The position numbers were made by a program, and so were the translations under genes. A stretch of DNA of 34,308 nucleotides from an uncultured Ralstonia sp. (GTDB lineage: Bacteria; Pseudomonadota; Gammaproteobacteria; Burkholderiales; Burkholderiaceae): contig CAJXMR010000035.1 in assembly GCA_913056305.1 (NCBI GenBank), forward strand, positions 1 through 34,308, in the 5' to 3' direction. Under the pieces are notes generated by a model that was not told where the DNA came from, searched no databases, and was given only the letters and a program-made list of their open reading frames with translations. Positions 12,822 to 17,767 of the stretch are shown in pieces. Every line of letters starts with the position of its first letter. The stretch's first letter is position 1.

Positions 12822-14795
12822 CTACCCCACGTTCATCGGCAGCAGCACCATCTGCTTGCCTTGCTGGTGCAGGCGTGTCTGGATTTCCAGCGGGCTCTGG
12901 TTGTGCAGCCACGCGGTGAGGAAATTGACCTGCCGGAAGATCAGCTTGCTGGCAAAGCACACGCTGTTCGGGAACTCGTCCATGGTGGTCTCCGCCAGCT
13001 TGGTGAACTGCGCCACCGGGCTGGTGCCGAAGGCGATGCGGTAGTCGGCCGCGTCACCATGCCGGCGGCATTGCGCGACGTAGAAGTCGAGCGAGGCGGT
13101 GATGGTCTGGCGTACGCGCTCCAGGTGTTCGGCGCCGTCGTAGCTCTGGGCATCGACTTCGCCCACGGCCAGGAAGATGAAGTTCTTGAAGTGTCCGGGG
13201 AAGAGCCGGTTCACCCACAGCAGCGCGTGCATGCTGGCGCCGCGGTGCTTGCCGACCAGCAGGATGGCGGTCGGCTGCGCCGGGTCAGGCTTGGCCGGGG
13301 CGGTGGCCTCGCTCACCGGAGGGGCCTCGCCGGGGAACAGCGCGTCTTCCTTGGCGATCTGCGCGCGGGTCTCGTCGTAGTGGCGCTTGATCAGGAAGCA
13401 CAGCGCAATCACCGCGCTGGTGACCAGCACCGTTAGCCAGCCGCCCTCCGTGAATTTCTCGATCAGGGTGATGACCAGCACCGTGCTCGTGACCGACAGG
13501 CCCCAGGCGGAGAGCGCAAAGTGCGTCCACCAGCGTTCACCGCTCTTGCGCCGGCGCCACCAATACGTGCACAGCCCCAGCAGCGATAGGCTGAAGGTCA
13601 GGAACACGTTGATGCTGTACAGCACCACCAGCACCGACACATCGCCGCGCGTCCAGAACAGGATCACCAGGCTGGCCACGCCCATCACGATGATGCCGTT
13701 CTGCCGCACCAGCCGGGCCGACAGATCGCGGAAGTGGCGCGGCACCCAGGAGTCGTGCGCCATGTTGGCCAGCACCGCAGGGCCGTCGAGGAAGCCGGTC
13801 TGCGCACCGACCATCAGCAGGCCCGCCTCGAAGGCCAGCACCGCCGCCAGCAACGCATCGCGCGCAAACGACGAGCCCAGCCCCATGTGGTCGATCACGC
13901 TGCCGAACACCACCGCGTTGAGTGTCTGGCCTTCCACCGGCTTGGCGTGCCACAGCATGTAGAGCAGGATGATGCCGCCCGCCGTGAAGGCCAGCGAGGT
14001 CGACATGTAGAGCATGGTTCGCTTGCCATGCGGCGTGCGCGGTTCGGCCAGCATGTTGACGTTGTTCGACACCGCCTCCAGGCCGGTGTAGGTCCCGCCG
14101 CCCAGCGAGAACGCGCGCATCAGGAGCCCCAGCATCACCAGCGGTCCGAGCGTCTGCGACATGGTGTGCGCCTCGCCCACGGCATCCGGCACCACGGCGG
14201 CGAGCCCGCTGCCATGGACCGCCACGCCATAGACGATCAGCACGAAGTGCAGCACCACAAAGCCAAGGAAGATCGGCAGCAGCACCAAGATCGATTCGCG
14301 CATGCCCCGGAAGTTGAGCCCGGTCATCAACACGATCAGCACCATCTCGGTGGCGAGCTTGAACGCCTGGGCACTGACCGGCAGCAGGCTGAAGAAGGCA
14401 TCGACCCCGCTGGCCAGCGAGGTGGCCACGGTCAGCACATAGTCGACCAGCAGTGCCGCGCCAGACACCAATCCGGGCCGTGGCCCCAGCAGCGCCGTGG
14501 CCACGCGGTAGCCTCCGCCGCCGGTCGGGAAGAGCTCGATGACCTGGTTGTAGCCGATCGCGATGATGAAGACCGTTGCCGCCGTCGCCAGCGCCAGGAA
14601 CAGCGCAAGCGGATGGTGCGCGCCGAGCGCCTTGAAGGCTTCCTCCGGGCCATAGCATGACGACGACAAACCGTCAGCCCCCAGCCCCACCCATGCCAGC
14701 AGCGGCGTGACCGCAATGGCGTGCCGCGTGCGCGGGTCCATCGGATCGAGCGGCTTGCCGACGATCACTTCCCACATCCTGCCCAGTGTGGCCAT
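12822..14795 (-). CDS. APC-superfamily transporter, probable KimA-type potassium importer
   Basis: A 657-residue protein: about 12 membrane segments (residues 30-495) and a cytosolic C-terminal domain of about 150 residues. Genes like this are usually labelled amino-acid permease. The N-terminus (VIVGKPLDP, GADGLSSSCYGPEEA, GGGGYRVA, LLVDYVLTVATSLASGVDA, NFRGMRES, TYTGLEAVSN) follows Bacillus subtilis KimA closely. As I recall them, the KimA potassium-site residues Asp36, Tyr43, Tyr118, Thr121, Ser125, Thr230 and Glu233 correspond here to Asp41, Tyr48, Tyr119, Thr122, Ser126, Thr237 and Glu240, all kept. A proton-coupled potassium importer is therefore the better call. The start follows AAGGAG. 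A few longer in-frame starts exist but fall in non-coding-like sequence. Confidence 0.75.
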   Translation of the reverse strand: MATLGRMWEVIVGKPLDPMDPRTRHAIAVTPLLAWVGLGADGLSSSCYGPEEAFKALGAHHPLALFLALATAATVFIIAIGYNQVIELFPTGGGGYRVATALLGPRPGLVSGAALLVDYVLTVATSLASGVDAFFSLLPVSAQAFKLATEMVLIVLMTGLNFRGMRESILVLLPIFLGFVVLHFVLIVYGVAVHGSGLAAVVPDAVGEAHTMSQTLGPLVMLGLLMRAFSLGGGTYTGLEAVSNNVNMLAEPRTPHGKRTMLYMSTSLAFTAGGIILLYMLWHAKPVEGQTLNAVVFGSVIDHMGLGSSFARDALLAAVLAFEAGLLMVGAQTGFLDGPAVLANMAHDSWVPRHFRDLSARLVRQNGIIVMGVASLVILFWTRGDVSVLVVLYSINVFLTFSLSLLGLCTYWWRRRKSGERWWTHFALSAWGLSVTSTVLVITLIEKFTEGGWLTVLVTSAVIALCFLIKRHYDETRAQIAKEDALFPGEAPPVSEATAPAKPDPAQPTAILLVGKHRGASMHALLWVNRLFPGHFKNFIFLAVGEVDAQSYDGAEHLERVRQTITASLDFYVAQCRRHGDAADYRIAFGTSPVAQFTKLAETTMDEFPNSVCFASKLIFRQVNFLTAWLHNQSPLEIQTRLHQQGKQMVLLPMNVG

Positions 14796-15228
14796 GGGTG
14801 TCTCCTTGTTCTCTGCCGCGTCAAGATCGCACTTGGTGAGCGGGCACGCCGGCAGCGTGTTCCATGATCTGAGTGGAATGTAGTGCAGATTGAAGTGACG
14901 TAACAGTCGGCGATACCCACAGGTAGCCATTTGGTTGAGAAACACAATGCGCAGCCGTGGCTCCGGGGTATTTGGCGCGAGCTGGTCCTGCTACGCACGC
15001 CGTCGTTTCCTTTGTGAAGCGGTACAGGCAAACCATACTCAAAGACAACCTGTGGTTCCTGAGCAAGACCCGGCGGATGGTTGAGCCGAAGAGGCAGATC
15101 AAGCGTTAATTAGTGATTTGTAGTGCTCTTTTATGTAGATCCAAAAAAACCTGTGTGGCGAGTGTCAGTTTCGGCGATGACGCTCGACTAACCGGTTCCA
15201 CCCACCTTTTTCACCAAGGAGTCTGACC
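14796..15228. other. 433-bp intergenic region, lower GC, contents unexplained
   Basis: This region separates the KimA-like gene and the Met-rich peptide gene, which diverge. It is less GC-rich than its surroundings from about 14870 to 15180. The plus strand has a stop-free run of about 47 codons ending at TAA 15107-15109, with a basic coding-like tail (FVKRYRQTILKDNLWFLSK), but no start with a ribosome site; it could be a gene remnant or chance. The final 60 bases must hold the promoter of the redox operon, but no clear sigma-70 or ECF signature was identified. Confidence 0.5.
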
Positions 15229-15480
15229 ATGAAGAAAGCACTGATTGCCACCTGTGTTGCCGGCCTCGCCTTCGTTAGCGCCGGTGCGGCGTTCGCACAG
15301 ACCGACACCACGCCCAAGAAGGAAGAAGCGCCCATGGCCAAAGATGCGATGGGGCACGACAAGATGGCAAAGGAAGGCATGAAGAACGACAAGATGAAGC
15401 ACGATGGGATGAAGAAGGACGCGATGAAGCACGATGAGATGAAGAAGGACGGGATGAAGAAGGACGAGATGAAGCAGTAA
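15229..15480 (+). CDS. Periplasmic methionine-rich MXKDX pentapeptide-repeat protein (MrpX-like)
   Basis: An 83-residue exported peptide. Residues 1-23 are a signal peptide (MKKALIATCVAGLAFVSAGA then AFA). The mature 60 residues carry ten Met, exactly one every five residues, in units such as MAKDA, MGHDK, MKNDK, MKHDG and MKKDE; the rest is Lys, Asp, Glu, His and Gly. This is the pentapeptide MXKDX repeat family. It starts the cluster with a b561 cytochrome and an MsrP-like molybdoenzyme, the same set as MrpX-YedZ1-YedY1 of Azospira suillum, where MrpX is a sacrificial hypochlorite scavenger whose Met sulfoxides are reduced by YedY1. A strong ribosome site (AAGGAG) precedes the ATG. The function is inferred from composition plus context. 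Confidence 0.85.
   Translation: MKKALIATCVAGLAFVSAGAAFAQTDTTPKKEEAPMAKDAMGHDKMAKEGMKNDKMKHDGMKKDAMKHDEMKKDGMKKDEMKQ
15334..15477 (+). repeat. 15-bp-period tandem repeat inside the Met-rich peptide gene
   Basis: ATG codons recur every 15 bases (15334, 15349, ... 15469), giving about 9.6 imperfect copies of a unit like ATGAAGAAGGACGNG. The last five units are most alike, so slippage could change the Met count between strains. Confidence 0.85.
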
Positions 15481-15491
15481 CAGTGAAGGGG

Positions 15492-15520
15492 CCGCGCCAC
15501 TCGACCATCGAATGGCGCGG
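15492..15520 (+). terminator. Intercistronic hairpin between Met-rich peptide gene and cytochrome gene
   Basis: Arms CCGCGCCA (15492-15499) and TGGCGCGG (15513-15520) enclose inner arms TCGA (15501-15504) and TCGA (15508-15511) with a CCA loop. No T tract follows, so it is more likely a partial terminator or a 3'-stabilising hairpin that favours the short first gene. Confidence 0.5.
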
Positions 15521-15630
15521 TGCCCCACCGCGAATCGACACCGCGATCCGGGCATGGCCGTAGGCGAGACCGGGCAGCGCGCAGCTGGCCGGCAAGCCAG
15601 CCTGTCATCTCTCTTTCTGGAGATTGCATC

Positions 15631-16260
15631 ATGAGTGCGGTTTCTGCTGACCCCCGCGCGCAGGCTTCGCCGGTGCGGCCGATTCATCCGCTGTGGGTGC
15701 GCGTGAGCCATTGGCTGAACGCACTTGCGGCGATCACGATGGTGTTGTCCGGCTGGCGCATCTACAACGCCTCGCCGATCTACGCGTCGTTCGAGTTTCC
15801 ACCCGGCCTCACGCTAGGCGGCTGGCTAGGCGGCGCCTTGCTGTGGCACTTTGCGGCGATGTGGCTGCTGTTCATCAACGGCATCGCCTACTTGACGCTC
15901 GCCGGCATCACCGGGCGGATCGCCCGCAAATTCTTTCCGGTCACGCCCGGCGCAGTCTTGCGCGATGCCTGGGCAGCGCTGCACGGCAAGTTGAGTCACA
16001 GCGATCTGAGTGTCTACAACGCGGTCCAGCGAGCAGCCTACCTGGCAGCGATCATTGACCTTGTTCTGCTTGTGCTGTCGGGCCTTGCGATCTGGAAATC
16101 GGTCCAGTTCCCGCTGCTTCGCACACTGCTGGGCGGCTATGACACGGCCCGTATCGTGCATTTCTGGGCGATGGCGTTCCTCGTCCTGTTCTTTGTGGTC
16201 CACGTCGCGATGGCGGCGCTTGTGCCTCGGTCGCTGCTGGCCATGATCCGCGGGCATTGA
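15631..16260 (+). CDS. Cytochrome b561-type membrane subunit (YedZ1-like)
   Basis: A 209-residue membrane protein with four to five transmembrane helices. Four His in helices fit a two-haem b561 core: His27 (VSHWLNA), His73 (LLWHFAAMW), His177 (IVHFWAM) and His191 (VVHVAMA). It would pass quinol electrons across the inner membrane to the periplasmic molybdoenzyme encoded 13 bp downstream. It resembles the b561-type partner of YedY1-like reductases rather than classical MsrQ. The start at 15631 has GGAG upstream; longer in-frame starts run into the intercistronic hairpin. It is co-directional with the Met-rich peptide gene and probably in one operon with it. Confidence 0.88.
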   Translation: MSAVSADPRAQASPVRPIHPLWVRVSHWLNALAAITMVLSGWRIYNASPIYASFEFPPGLTLGGWLGGALLWHFAAMWLLFINGIAYLTLAGITGRIARKFFPVTPGAVLRDAWAALHGKLSHSDLSVYNAVQRAAYLAAIIDLVLLVLSGLAIWKSVQFPLLRTLLGGYDTARIVHFWAMAFLVLFFVVHVAMAALVPRSLLAMIRGH

Positions 16261-16273
16261 AAGGAGAATCCCC

Positions 16274-17074
16274 ATGCCATTGAAGCCCAGCACTTCGAAG
16301 CCCGACAGCGATGTCACCCGTTACCGGCTGGACCGGCGCTCGCTCGAGATCGACGTGCGCCGCGAACTCGAGATGCCTTCGCGGCGCCTGTTCAACCGGC
16401 GCATTCTCACGCTTGGGGGGTTGACGATGCTCACCGGCTGCACGCTCGTCGATGATGCTTCGGTCAATGATTTCCTGGTGAAGGTCTCGCGCATGAATGA
16501 CCGCGTGCAGGCCTGGCTGTTCGACCCCAAGCGCCTTGCACCCACCTACACTGAAGCTGACCTGACGCGGCCATTCCCCTTCAACGCGTTCTACTCGATG
16601 GCGGAGGTGCCGCATGTTGATGCGTCGACATACCGGTTGGCTATGTCGGGCCTGGTCACCGGCAAGCGGAGCTGGACGCTCGACGAACTGTATCTGCTGC
16701 CGCACGCCGAACAGATCACGCGCCACATCTGCGTTGAAGGATGGAGCGCGATCGGCCGCTGGGGCGGAACGCCGTTTGCCGAATTTCTGCGCCGGGTGGG
16801 GGCCGATACGAGCGCCAAGTACGTCGGCTTCAAGTGTGCGGACGATTACTACGAGAGCATCGACATGCCGACCGCCCTGCATCCGCAGACGCTGCTGACG
16901 TTCGAATACGACGGCGCGCGGCTGCCGCCTGAATTCGGTTTCCCGATGAAGCTGCGCATGCCGACCAAGCTGGGCTACAAGAACCCGAAGCACATCATGG
17001 AGATCTTCGTCACCAACACGTTTCCGGGTGGCTATTGGGTTGACCAGGGTTACAACTGGTTCGGTGGGTCGTGA
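16274..17074 (+). CDS. MsrP/YedY-like molybdopterin-dependent oxidoreductase, Tat lipoprotein
   Basis: A 266-residue sulfite-oxidase-fold enzyme. Cys153 in RHICVEGWSAIGRWGG is the predicted molybdenum ligand. The export signal has a twin-arginine motif (SRRLFN, residues 36-41) and a lipobox (LTGC, Cys56), so it is likely a Tat-exported lipoprotein facing the periplasm. Its close match in layout is YedY1, which reduces protein Met sulfoxides in the MrpX system. A strong ribosome site (AAGGAG) supports ATG 16274, giving an unusual 33-residue stretch before the Tat motif; ATG 16373 is an alternative. The oxidised Met-rich peptide encoded upstream is the probable substrate, by inference. Confidence 0.88.
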   Translation: MPLKPSTSKPDSDVTRYRLDRRSLEIDVRRELEMPSRRLFNRRILTLGGLTMLTGCTLVDDASVNDFLVKVSRMNDRVQAWLFDPKRLAPTYTEADLTRPFPFNAFYSMAEVPHVDASTYRLAMSGLVTGKRSWTLDELYLLPHAEQITRHICVEGWSAIGRWGGTPFAEFLRRVGADTSAKYVGFKCADDYYESIDMPTALHPQTLLTFEYDGARLPPEFGFPMKLRMPTKLGYKNPKHIMEIFVTNTFPGGYWVDQGYNWFGGS

Positions 17075-17168
17075 CGGCTTGCCGAACGTCCAGTCCAGGA
17101 GCGCGTGCCGATCGGGGCAGCCAAGAGATCGATCGGACGTCCCGCTGAAACCTCATGCACGGGCCCGG

Positions 17169-17372
17169 ATGATGCAACGCCTGCTCGTACTCCTCGGTTG
17201 TTTGCTGATCGCTGTGGGCGCTGCCTGGCCTTGGCTGTCGAGCATTCCCTTTGGGCACTTGCCAGGCGACATCCATATCGTCAGGGACGGCTACTCGTTC
17301 CATTTCCCGATGACGACTTGCATCCTGGCCTCGCTGCTGCTGTCGTTCCTGATCTGGATCCTCCGACGCTGA
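17169..17372 (+). CDS. DUF2905 small membrane protein
   Basis: A 67-residue protein with two hydrophobic helices (MQRLLVLLGCLLIAVGAAW and TTCILASLLLSFLIWIL) joined by the family hallmark HLPGDIHI and ending in RR. Length and pattern fit DUF2905, whose function is not known. The start is ATG 17169, with an adjacent ATG at 17172; the ribosome site is weak. It lies 94 bp after the molybdoenzyme on the same strand, so it may be the last gene of that operon, but the gap and weak start leave this open. Confidence 0.8.
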   Translation: MMQRLLVLLGCLLIAVGAAWPWLSSIPFGHLPGDIHIVRDGYSFHFPMTTCILASLLLSFLIWILRR

Positions 17373-17767
17373 TCCGCAGCCTGCGTGCAAGCGTGCCAAA
17401 CCTCGAGCGCGCTGCTTCCTCCATCCCCGATGCACGGTTGACGGCAAGGCATGCGAAGCCTGCGCGCGATTATCGGTGTACTTATCTCAGTGTTCAGGGC
17501 TACCCGCATTCGAGCGTGCGCACTAGGCGCCGGCAGTATGTCAGGCGTGAAATCCGATCCGGATTTTGTATAGTGACCTGAAGACCGGCAGCGCCTTTCC
17601 CGCCATGCCATTGCAATGATTCGCCTGCCAGAGCGGCGGGTTGAATGGTTGCGCATCGCATGGCATCTCCTCGTCCTGTATTTGGATGCACAGGGTGGCA
17701 ATGCGGCGGGCCGGATTTTCGCGCGCATGTTGGCCGGTGCGCGAAAGCATTGGGAGACAACGCTCGC
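17373..17767. other. 395-bp non-coding region upstream of the luxR-type gene
   Basis: No convincing gene was found. It holds the probable luxR promoter and palindrome (17547-17574) and about 190 bp of leader. Short overlapping frames in the leader (for example from ATG 17616) have no ribosome site or family resemblance. No terminator was seen for the DUF2905 gene. Confidence 0.55.
17547..17574 (+). promoter_or_regulatory. Candidate promoter with central palindrome for the luxR-type gene
   Basis: GTGAAA (17547-17552) and TATAGT (17569-17574) are 16 bp apart. Between them lies a perfect dyad AAATCCG-ATC-CGGATTT (17550-17566). It does not match the CT-N12-AG lux-box form. Confidence 0.45.

Follow-up and report, generated by a model that had tools for sequence, protein, structure and literature searches.

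Three neighbouring genes in a Ralstonia genome are of a kind annotated merely as 'MXKDX repeat protein', 'cytochrome b/b6' and 'molybdopterin-dependent oxidoreductase'. Do they share a function, and which switch controls them? We analysed a stretch of 34,308 nucleotides (hereafter the window; contig CAJXMR010000035.1) of an uncultured Ralstonia sp., whose assembly (GCA_913056305.1, our genome G000) comprises 411 contigs and is 88.46% complete. The joint function that we offer for these genes is defence against hypochlorous acid (HOCl). With a probability of roughly 0.7, they form a mobile set in which an HOCl-spent, methionine (Met)-rich peptide would be recycled by a b561-type cytochrome and the molybdoenzyme YedY1, and which would be transcribed from a sigma-E/RpoE2-type promoter of an extracytoplasmic function (ECF) sigma factor, not under SigF/NrsF.

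Three genes and an upstream element

The genes lie within 15229-17074, co-directional as the preliminary description of this DNA had reported, with 150 bases between mrpX and b561 and 13 between b561 and yedY1. The features are:

15163..15192, + strand: ECF-type promoter-like element TGTCA-N17-CGACTAA, the best match to the neisserial sigma-E consensus in the window
15229..15480, + strand: mrpX-like gene, signal peptide and 60-residue MxKDx peptide (TIGR02953, 64.4 bits, cut-off 41)
15631..16260, + strand: yedZ1-like gene, b561-type membrane cytochrome (PF01292, E 4.7e-20, conserved histidines)
16274..17074, + strand: yedY1-like gene, twin-arginine (Tat)-exported, lipid-anchored molybdopterin oxidoreductase with catalytic Cys153 (PF00174, tree)

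The first gene encodes 83 amino acids (aa), and the end of its signal peptide was judged by eye to lie between AFA and Q. Reading of the frame bore out the regularity described earlier: the 60 residues of the mature peptide hold exactly ten Met, at positions 36, 41 and so on to 81, with a constant spacing of five. The longest five-spaced Met run among 100,000 shuffles of the mature part was six. The peptide matches the 'pentapeptide MXKDX repeat' family, as the Met-rich peptide of an MrpX-YedZ1-YedY1 set should, and is the sole TIGR02953 match across its own assembly. At nine other loci (L087, L090, L148, L168, L172, L188, L189, L195, L197), the MxKDx place beside b561-YedY1 is taken by a protein roughly 200-250 aa long. 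An apparent signal sequence was seen in one of these proteins (P0003), the type has no Pfam match over cut-off, and it is a possible alternative substrate.

The likely start of the cytochrome is ATG 15631 (209 aa), the mechanical reading frame beginning at GTG 15520. The four histidines of the b561 protein described earlier are conserved in an alignment of 130 rows (H27 in 128, H73 in 129, H177 and H191 in all), and a fifth, H123, is kept in 130/130. The expected cytochrome partner, a same-strand b561 homologue, was present beside the enzyme at every one of the 137 loci inspected (two being duplicates). For the cytochrome of the window, which matches PF01292, the family scan reported no MsrQ family. 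Upstream of b561, L018, L021, L170, L171, L190 and many Paraburkholderia loci have a gene for a DUF1223 protein (PF06764), which shows a CxxC motif and an apparent signal sequence and is likely an accessory of the repair system.

The molybdoenzyme has 266 aa (PF00174, E 1.4e-28). Its C153 aligns with Cys102 of Escherichia coli YedY/MsrP (PDB 1xdq; positions hand-counted from the alignment), which we take to be the Mo ligand. R37, R38, the lipobox Cys56 and C153 are present in 100% of the 129 rows of its clade (clade A, see below), in agreement with the earlier call of a Tat-lipoprotein molybdoenzyme with catalytic Cys153. The start codon ATG 16274 is preceded by AAAGGAG, and related enzymes have stretches of similar length ahead of their Tat motif, so the long pre-Tat stretch is genuine. 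The suggestion that the lipoprotein anchor and this stretch set the enzyme apart did not hold, since the anchor is common to 129/129 clade rows and similar stretches occur in relatives. Pre-Tat residues 19-35 are partly conserved in clade A (n=129; D20 84%, D27 77%, L32 87%, P35 89%), and the eight rows of clade B have the Tat motif at residues 6-14.

Placement of the enzyme in the YedY1 clade

We surveyed 399 genomes of the order (E <= 1e-40) and obtained two groups of enzymes, clade A with 58-100% identity to the window enzyme (42 places in 39 genomes) and clade B with 38-44% (7 places). As a stand-in for Azospira suillum YedY1 we used the enzyme (L158) of an island in genome G378. The G378 contig encodes Cld (PF06778, E 1.1e-31), NrsF (PF06532), MsrA, an ECF sigma factor, an MxKDx peptide, b561 and YedY1. 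It also encodes alpha and beta subunits of the type II DMSO-reductase family over cut-off (TIGR03479, TIGR03478), the family to which PcrAB and ClrAB belong. Its NrsF scores 160 against an NCBIfam cut-off of 300, though it exceeds that of Pfam, a NapC-like gene is slightly below its cut-off, and Cld is named weakly by NCBIfam, as HemQ. Since some family scores thus fall below cut-offs, we call the contig a (per)chlorate-reduction island on the basis of its gene content; islands of similar content are described in the accessible part of PMC4623255.

In the tree, 64 of the 65 clade A rows, including the window enzyme and the island YedY1 (70% identical to each other), share one branch with support 97/94 that is free of MsrP and clade B rows. 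Apart from it stand eight clade B rows (100/100) and four MsrP rows (E. coli, Azospirillum and two of the genus; 100/100). In 67% of 200 bootstrap trees, a single branch separates the entire clade A from all other rows. Hence, the test proposed in the preliminary description, whether the enzyme falls within or outside the YedY1 clade, placed it inside. The tree was built without three MsrP rows of the genus (L097, L106, L108; probably wrong frame), a very long SoxC-like row, two duplicates (L151, L152), the truncated L179 and most of the 80 named loci. Its label 'no partner' is too frequent: the genomes of L150, L170, L171 and L174 have an MxKDx match beside the enzyme.

Linkage of peptide and enzyme across genomes

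Over-cut-off TIGR02953 genes occur at 32 places in the 399 genomes, and 25 of these lie within 5 kb of a clade A enzyme. Seen from the enzyme, a TIGR02953 match stands within 5 kb of 26/42 clade A places (25 over cut-off, one weak match) and of 0/7 clade B places. At the level of genomes, MxKDx was found in 28 of the 39 with clade A, against 4 of the other 360 (Fisher 6e-30). The linkage count leaves out three second pieces of a single frame (G022, G148, G153), a partial over-cut-off NrsF match (G169 C63) and eight sub-cut-off NrsF matches. The peptide gene precedes b561 in some lineages and follows yedY1 in others. From the parts, the clade placement and the 25/32 linkage, we judge on sequence grounds that the three genes are an MrpX-YedZ1-YedY1 set. 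The family matches, the branch shared with the island YedY1 and the linkage thus support the match first proposed from the window.

The linkage also bears on another account of the set, which we consider unlikely, namely general envelope Met-sulfoxide repair of the MsrPQ kind, with the MxKDx peptide as one substrate or an oxidation sensor and not the main sink. At sixteen of the 42 clade A places, MxKDx is missing within 5 kb of the enzyme, so the enzyme-cytochrome pair also occurs without the peptide, and another protein takes the peptide's place in 6 of the 65 tree rows. E. coli MsrP is moreover described as mending SurA and Pal (accessible text of PMC8315932). However, the presence of 25 of 32 MxKDx genes by the enzyme is a tighter linkage than a general repair enzyme requires, and each of the 16 genomes of the genus has a further MsrP-like match, 37-38% identical.

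As separate observations, enterobacterial plasmids carry a b561-YedY1-MxKDx cassette, e.g. at L086:8244-9902, where an IS26 transposase gene lies upstream; its YedY1 is 62.8% identical over 78% of that of the window. Cassette matches were found in 72 of 72,556 PLSDB records (58 Escherichia, 11 Klebsiella, 3 Shigella; 69 conjugative), and in 73 of 5,426 complete E. coli genomes, at 76 places, every one on a plasmid. In 14 of the best 80 named loci (L039, L057-L059, L066-L069, L071, L073, L076, L079-L081), the set has in its vicinity a gene that by eye resembles those of CLC-type chloride channels.

Control of the set

The preliminary description had cautioned that regulation might differ from that in Azospira and had advised a search for SigF/NrsF elsewhere in the genome. 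The search of the own assembly (88% complete) found no NrsF, and none was found in the other five genomes of the genus with YedY1. The single genome with NrsF among the 16 of the genus lacks a YedY1-like enzyme. More broadly, 9 of the 42 clade A places have NrsF within 5 kb; among the 26 peptide-bearing sets, 16 come from genomes without an over-cut-off NrsF.

The SigF-type (ECF16) motif tells a similar story. We used a loose form (GTAACC, spacer 13-19, CGAA or CGTA) and a strict one (GTAACC-N16-CGAA); GTAACC-spacer-CGAA resembles BcrS sites listed in the accessible text of PMC8315932. Among 44 SigF-linked loci, the loose form is present at 42, the G378 island being one of them. Of the 81 loci with neither SigF nor a response regulator, 5 have it, as does 1 of the 12 response-regulator loci (L160, which also has a SigF-like gene). 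There is none in the window. The palindrome TTAC-N4-8-GTAA, which we take to be HprR-like, was found at 0/11 two-component loci, at 0/15 others and nowhere in the window. SigF/NrsF control is a trait of the Azospira set and not of the three parts, so we count the set of the window as a variant. With no NrsF in its assembly, no SigF-type motif in the window and a different promoter-like element, the caution proved justified, and the departure is greater than it had foreseen.

This element, TGTCA-N17-CG(A/T)C, surfaced from an alignment of upstream regions and ends 36 bases upstream of the mrpX start codon. The neisserial sigma-E consensus is given as GTMAGBWTT, a spacer of 12-13 and CGTCTAAH (PMC2893595, accessible text). 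Positions 15164-15192 fit GTMAGBWTT-N12-CGTCTAAH at 15 of 17 positions, as a promoter of the neisserial type should. It is the single best site of the window on both strands (runner-up 13), and none of 400 random 300-base windows from other loci scored above 14. Related sites score 15 (G012), 14 (G011) and 12-14 (four Burkholderia sites).

Across 126 clade A loci (clade B, a truncated locus and two duplicates being excluded; L160 counted as SigF-linked), the element lies upstream of 39 of the 72 sets that have neither SigF nor a response regulator next to them, of none of the 43 SigF-linked and of none of the 11 response-regulator-linked ones. These counts are descriptive because the pattern was fixed after the upstream sites had been seen. 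The strict SigF element gave 3/72, 40/43 and 0/11 in the same classes, and no locus has both elements. The sigma-E-type pattern gave 1 match in 1.5 Mb of background; about 0.001 matches are expected per locus. Strict upstream-pattern matches of L016, L020, L025, L070 and L151 were rejected as spurious, being located inside yedY1. From these comparisons of sequence, the promoter-like element is well supported. Search listings of the openly accessible literature showed no account of the kit under a sigma-E/RpoE2-type promoter.

The set might instead be expressed from a housekeeping promoter, the ECF-like element being a chance match, which we regard as distinctly unlikely. ECF motifs are short, and for this one the own genome offers only a candidate sigma factor. 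A sigma-70-like scan of 14780-17700, which spans one promoter type, gave only two matches, both at 17469-17574, downstream of the set. A chance match sits poorly with the single best site of the window and with 39 of 72 loci against the background given above.

Candidate sigma factors and predicted regulon

Neisseria sigma-E and Haemophilus RpoE2 are described as ECF factors with small anti-sigmas that drive msrAB (PMC7907618, PMC2893595, PMC3240639, accessible parts). RpoE2 is further tied to HOCl and affects a Mo-containing Met-sulfoxide reductase, mtsZ (PMC7907618, same restriction). In Paraburkholderia monticola we found six sigma-E-type sites genome-wide. Three lie before recognisable genes: an ECF gene followed by a zf-HC2 gene, a DUF1223-b561-YedY1 unit, and an exported MsrA; the remaining three have nothing recognisable downstream. 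In the own genome, the best sigma candidate (contig C237; L234, L246) shares 45% identity with the ECF factor of P. monticola and has an HxxxCxxC partner. It lies next to argB-like and two-component-like genes, named by eye.

A wider proposal, for which we would give slightly less than even odds, is that Burkholderiaceae possess a second, SigF-independent HOCl regulon, in which a sigma-E/RpoE2-type ECF with a small zinc anti-sigma would drive the set together with an exported MsrA. The kit would pass between lineages and be coupled to sensors of at least three kinds (ECF16, a sigma-E-type ECF and two-component). If true, two routes of Met-sulfoxide repair would be joined under one switch.

Genomic setting

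The set is flanked by an amino-acid-permease-like gene (12822-14789, - strand) on one side; the other flanking genes encode DUF2905 (17169-17372), a LuxR-type regulator and a GGDEF-EAL protein. The G+C content of mrpX (0.55), b561 (0.63) and yedY1 (0.62) is low relative to the window (0.657), which fits acquisition. The best 80 of 588 confirmed relatives, which make up our set of named loci, all come from Burkholderiaceae (Burkholderia, Paraburkholderia, Caballeronia, Cupriavidus, Ralstonia and Trinickia). Within the genus, a YedY1-like enzyme is present in 6 of 16 genomes (identity 64-100%), and in G012 (enzyme identity 95%) the set sits among different neighbour genes. The set therefore looks horizontally mobile.

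Proposed mechanism

Scavenging of HOCl with respiratory regeneration is, in our analysis, the best reading of the set. The sink-and-regeneration mechanism is adopted from the accessible text of work on Azospira and Brucella (PMC4623255, PMC5748585, PMC8315932); in the last of these, the Brucella bcrXQP genes, for an MXKDX peptide and an MsrPQ-like pair, are HOCl-induced and aid HOCl resistance in vitro. The exported MxKDx peptide would act as the sink, its ten Met being oxidised to Met-sulfoxide by HOCl or related oxidants. The b561 cytochrome would pass electrons from the quinol pool to YedY1, which, lipid-tethered at the periplasmic face of the membrane next to the cytochrome, would reduce the Met-sulfoxides so that the peptide could cycle. 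Transcription would start at an ECF promoter of the neisserial sigma-E or Haemophilus RpoE2 type, instead of one for SigF/NrsF (ECF16), and the acting ECF factor would probably be encoded elsewhere in the genome and be restrained by a small zinc anti-sigma.

Several results count against this reading, as do the places without a peptide and the rows with a replacement protein given above. The enzyme scores 78 bits with the NCBIfam MsrP model, far below the cut-off of 207, and is thus not an MsrP equivalog by that model; one clade A row lies outside the main branch without support (32/7). Regarding the promoter, 33 of the 72 sets without an adjacent regulator also lack the element, and the Paraburkholderia sites score 10-11/17, like random 300-base windows. 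No such site was found upstream of the relatives of the P. monticola ECF in G300 and G414, nor is there a sigma-E-type promoter upstream of the C237 ECF gene. The C237 and P. monticola factors are both TIGR02943 but exceed the cut-offs of different equivalogs (PRK12520 and PRK12545), and a C237-like ECF is present in 16/16 genus genomes, 10 of them without the set.

It is very improbable that the set serves copper or silver buffering, with the Met-rich peptide as a periplasmic binder of Cu(I)/Ag(I) whose Met ligands are kept reduced by the oxidoreductase pair: a 'heavy metal' annotation on two-component genes beside a Sinorhizobium pair (where no MxKDx gene is listed) and a Burkholderia contaminans plasmid copy near SCO, cytochrome c and CDF genes speak for it, but copper motifs are usually of the MxM/MxxM form, unlike the five-residue Met spacing here. 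Both the (per)chlorate island and the data on Brucella (accessible text of PMC8315932) link the kit instead to reactive chlorine.

Comparison with known systems

A search of 50 genomes for Cld found it in 3, which suggests that defence by a sacrificial peptide is common beyond perchlorate respiration. At least 14 changes of regulator label occur on the 65 clade A tree rows, with contigs partly incomplete, suggesting that control of the kit was swapped repeatedly. The kit itself is already known from perchlorate-breathing bacteria and is here apparently under a different genetic switch. This suggests a new aspect, a conserved kit with an exchangeable switch, and provides a short promoter rule to predict which switch a given set uses.

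The closest known counterpart is MrpX-YedZ1-YedY1 of Azospira suillum PS and the perchlorate islands, which shares with the window an exported Met-rich peptide, a b-type cytochrome and a YedY-like molybdoenzyme; the G378 island YedY1 is on the same tree branch as the window enzyme and has the same Tat-lipobox. Unlike those sets with SigF/NrsF, the own assembly has no NrsF or Cld (PF06778) match and the window no ECF16-type motif, and the peptide gene is first in the operon of the window but last in the G378 island. BcrXQP of Brucella melitensis, controlled by BcrS/AbcS and likened here by description (PMC8315932, accessible text), similarly joins an MXKDX peptide to a Met-sulfoxide reductase pair and is HOCl-induced, but is under ECF16 control. 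MsrP-MsrQ of E. coli and of the Ralstonia genus, which serve envelope Met-sulfoxide repair, have the PF00174 domain and the aligned Cys in common with the window, whereas the window cytochrome belongs to PF01292 with no MsrQ family reported and its enzyme stays at 78 against the MsrP cut-off of 207. Finally, Neisseria sigma-E/MseR and Haemophilus RpoE2/HrsE would resemble our system in control: the neisserial consensus fits the window at 15 of 17 positions, and the predicted P. monticola regulon has, as they do, MsrA and an ECF factor paired with a small zinc anti-sigma. The accessible accounts of these regulons list msrAB and mtsZ together with a DMT transporter, a DoxX cluster and the sigma operon; they mention no set with a Met-rich peptide like the one that, in the window, stands behind a promoter-like element of their type.

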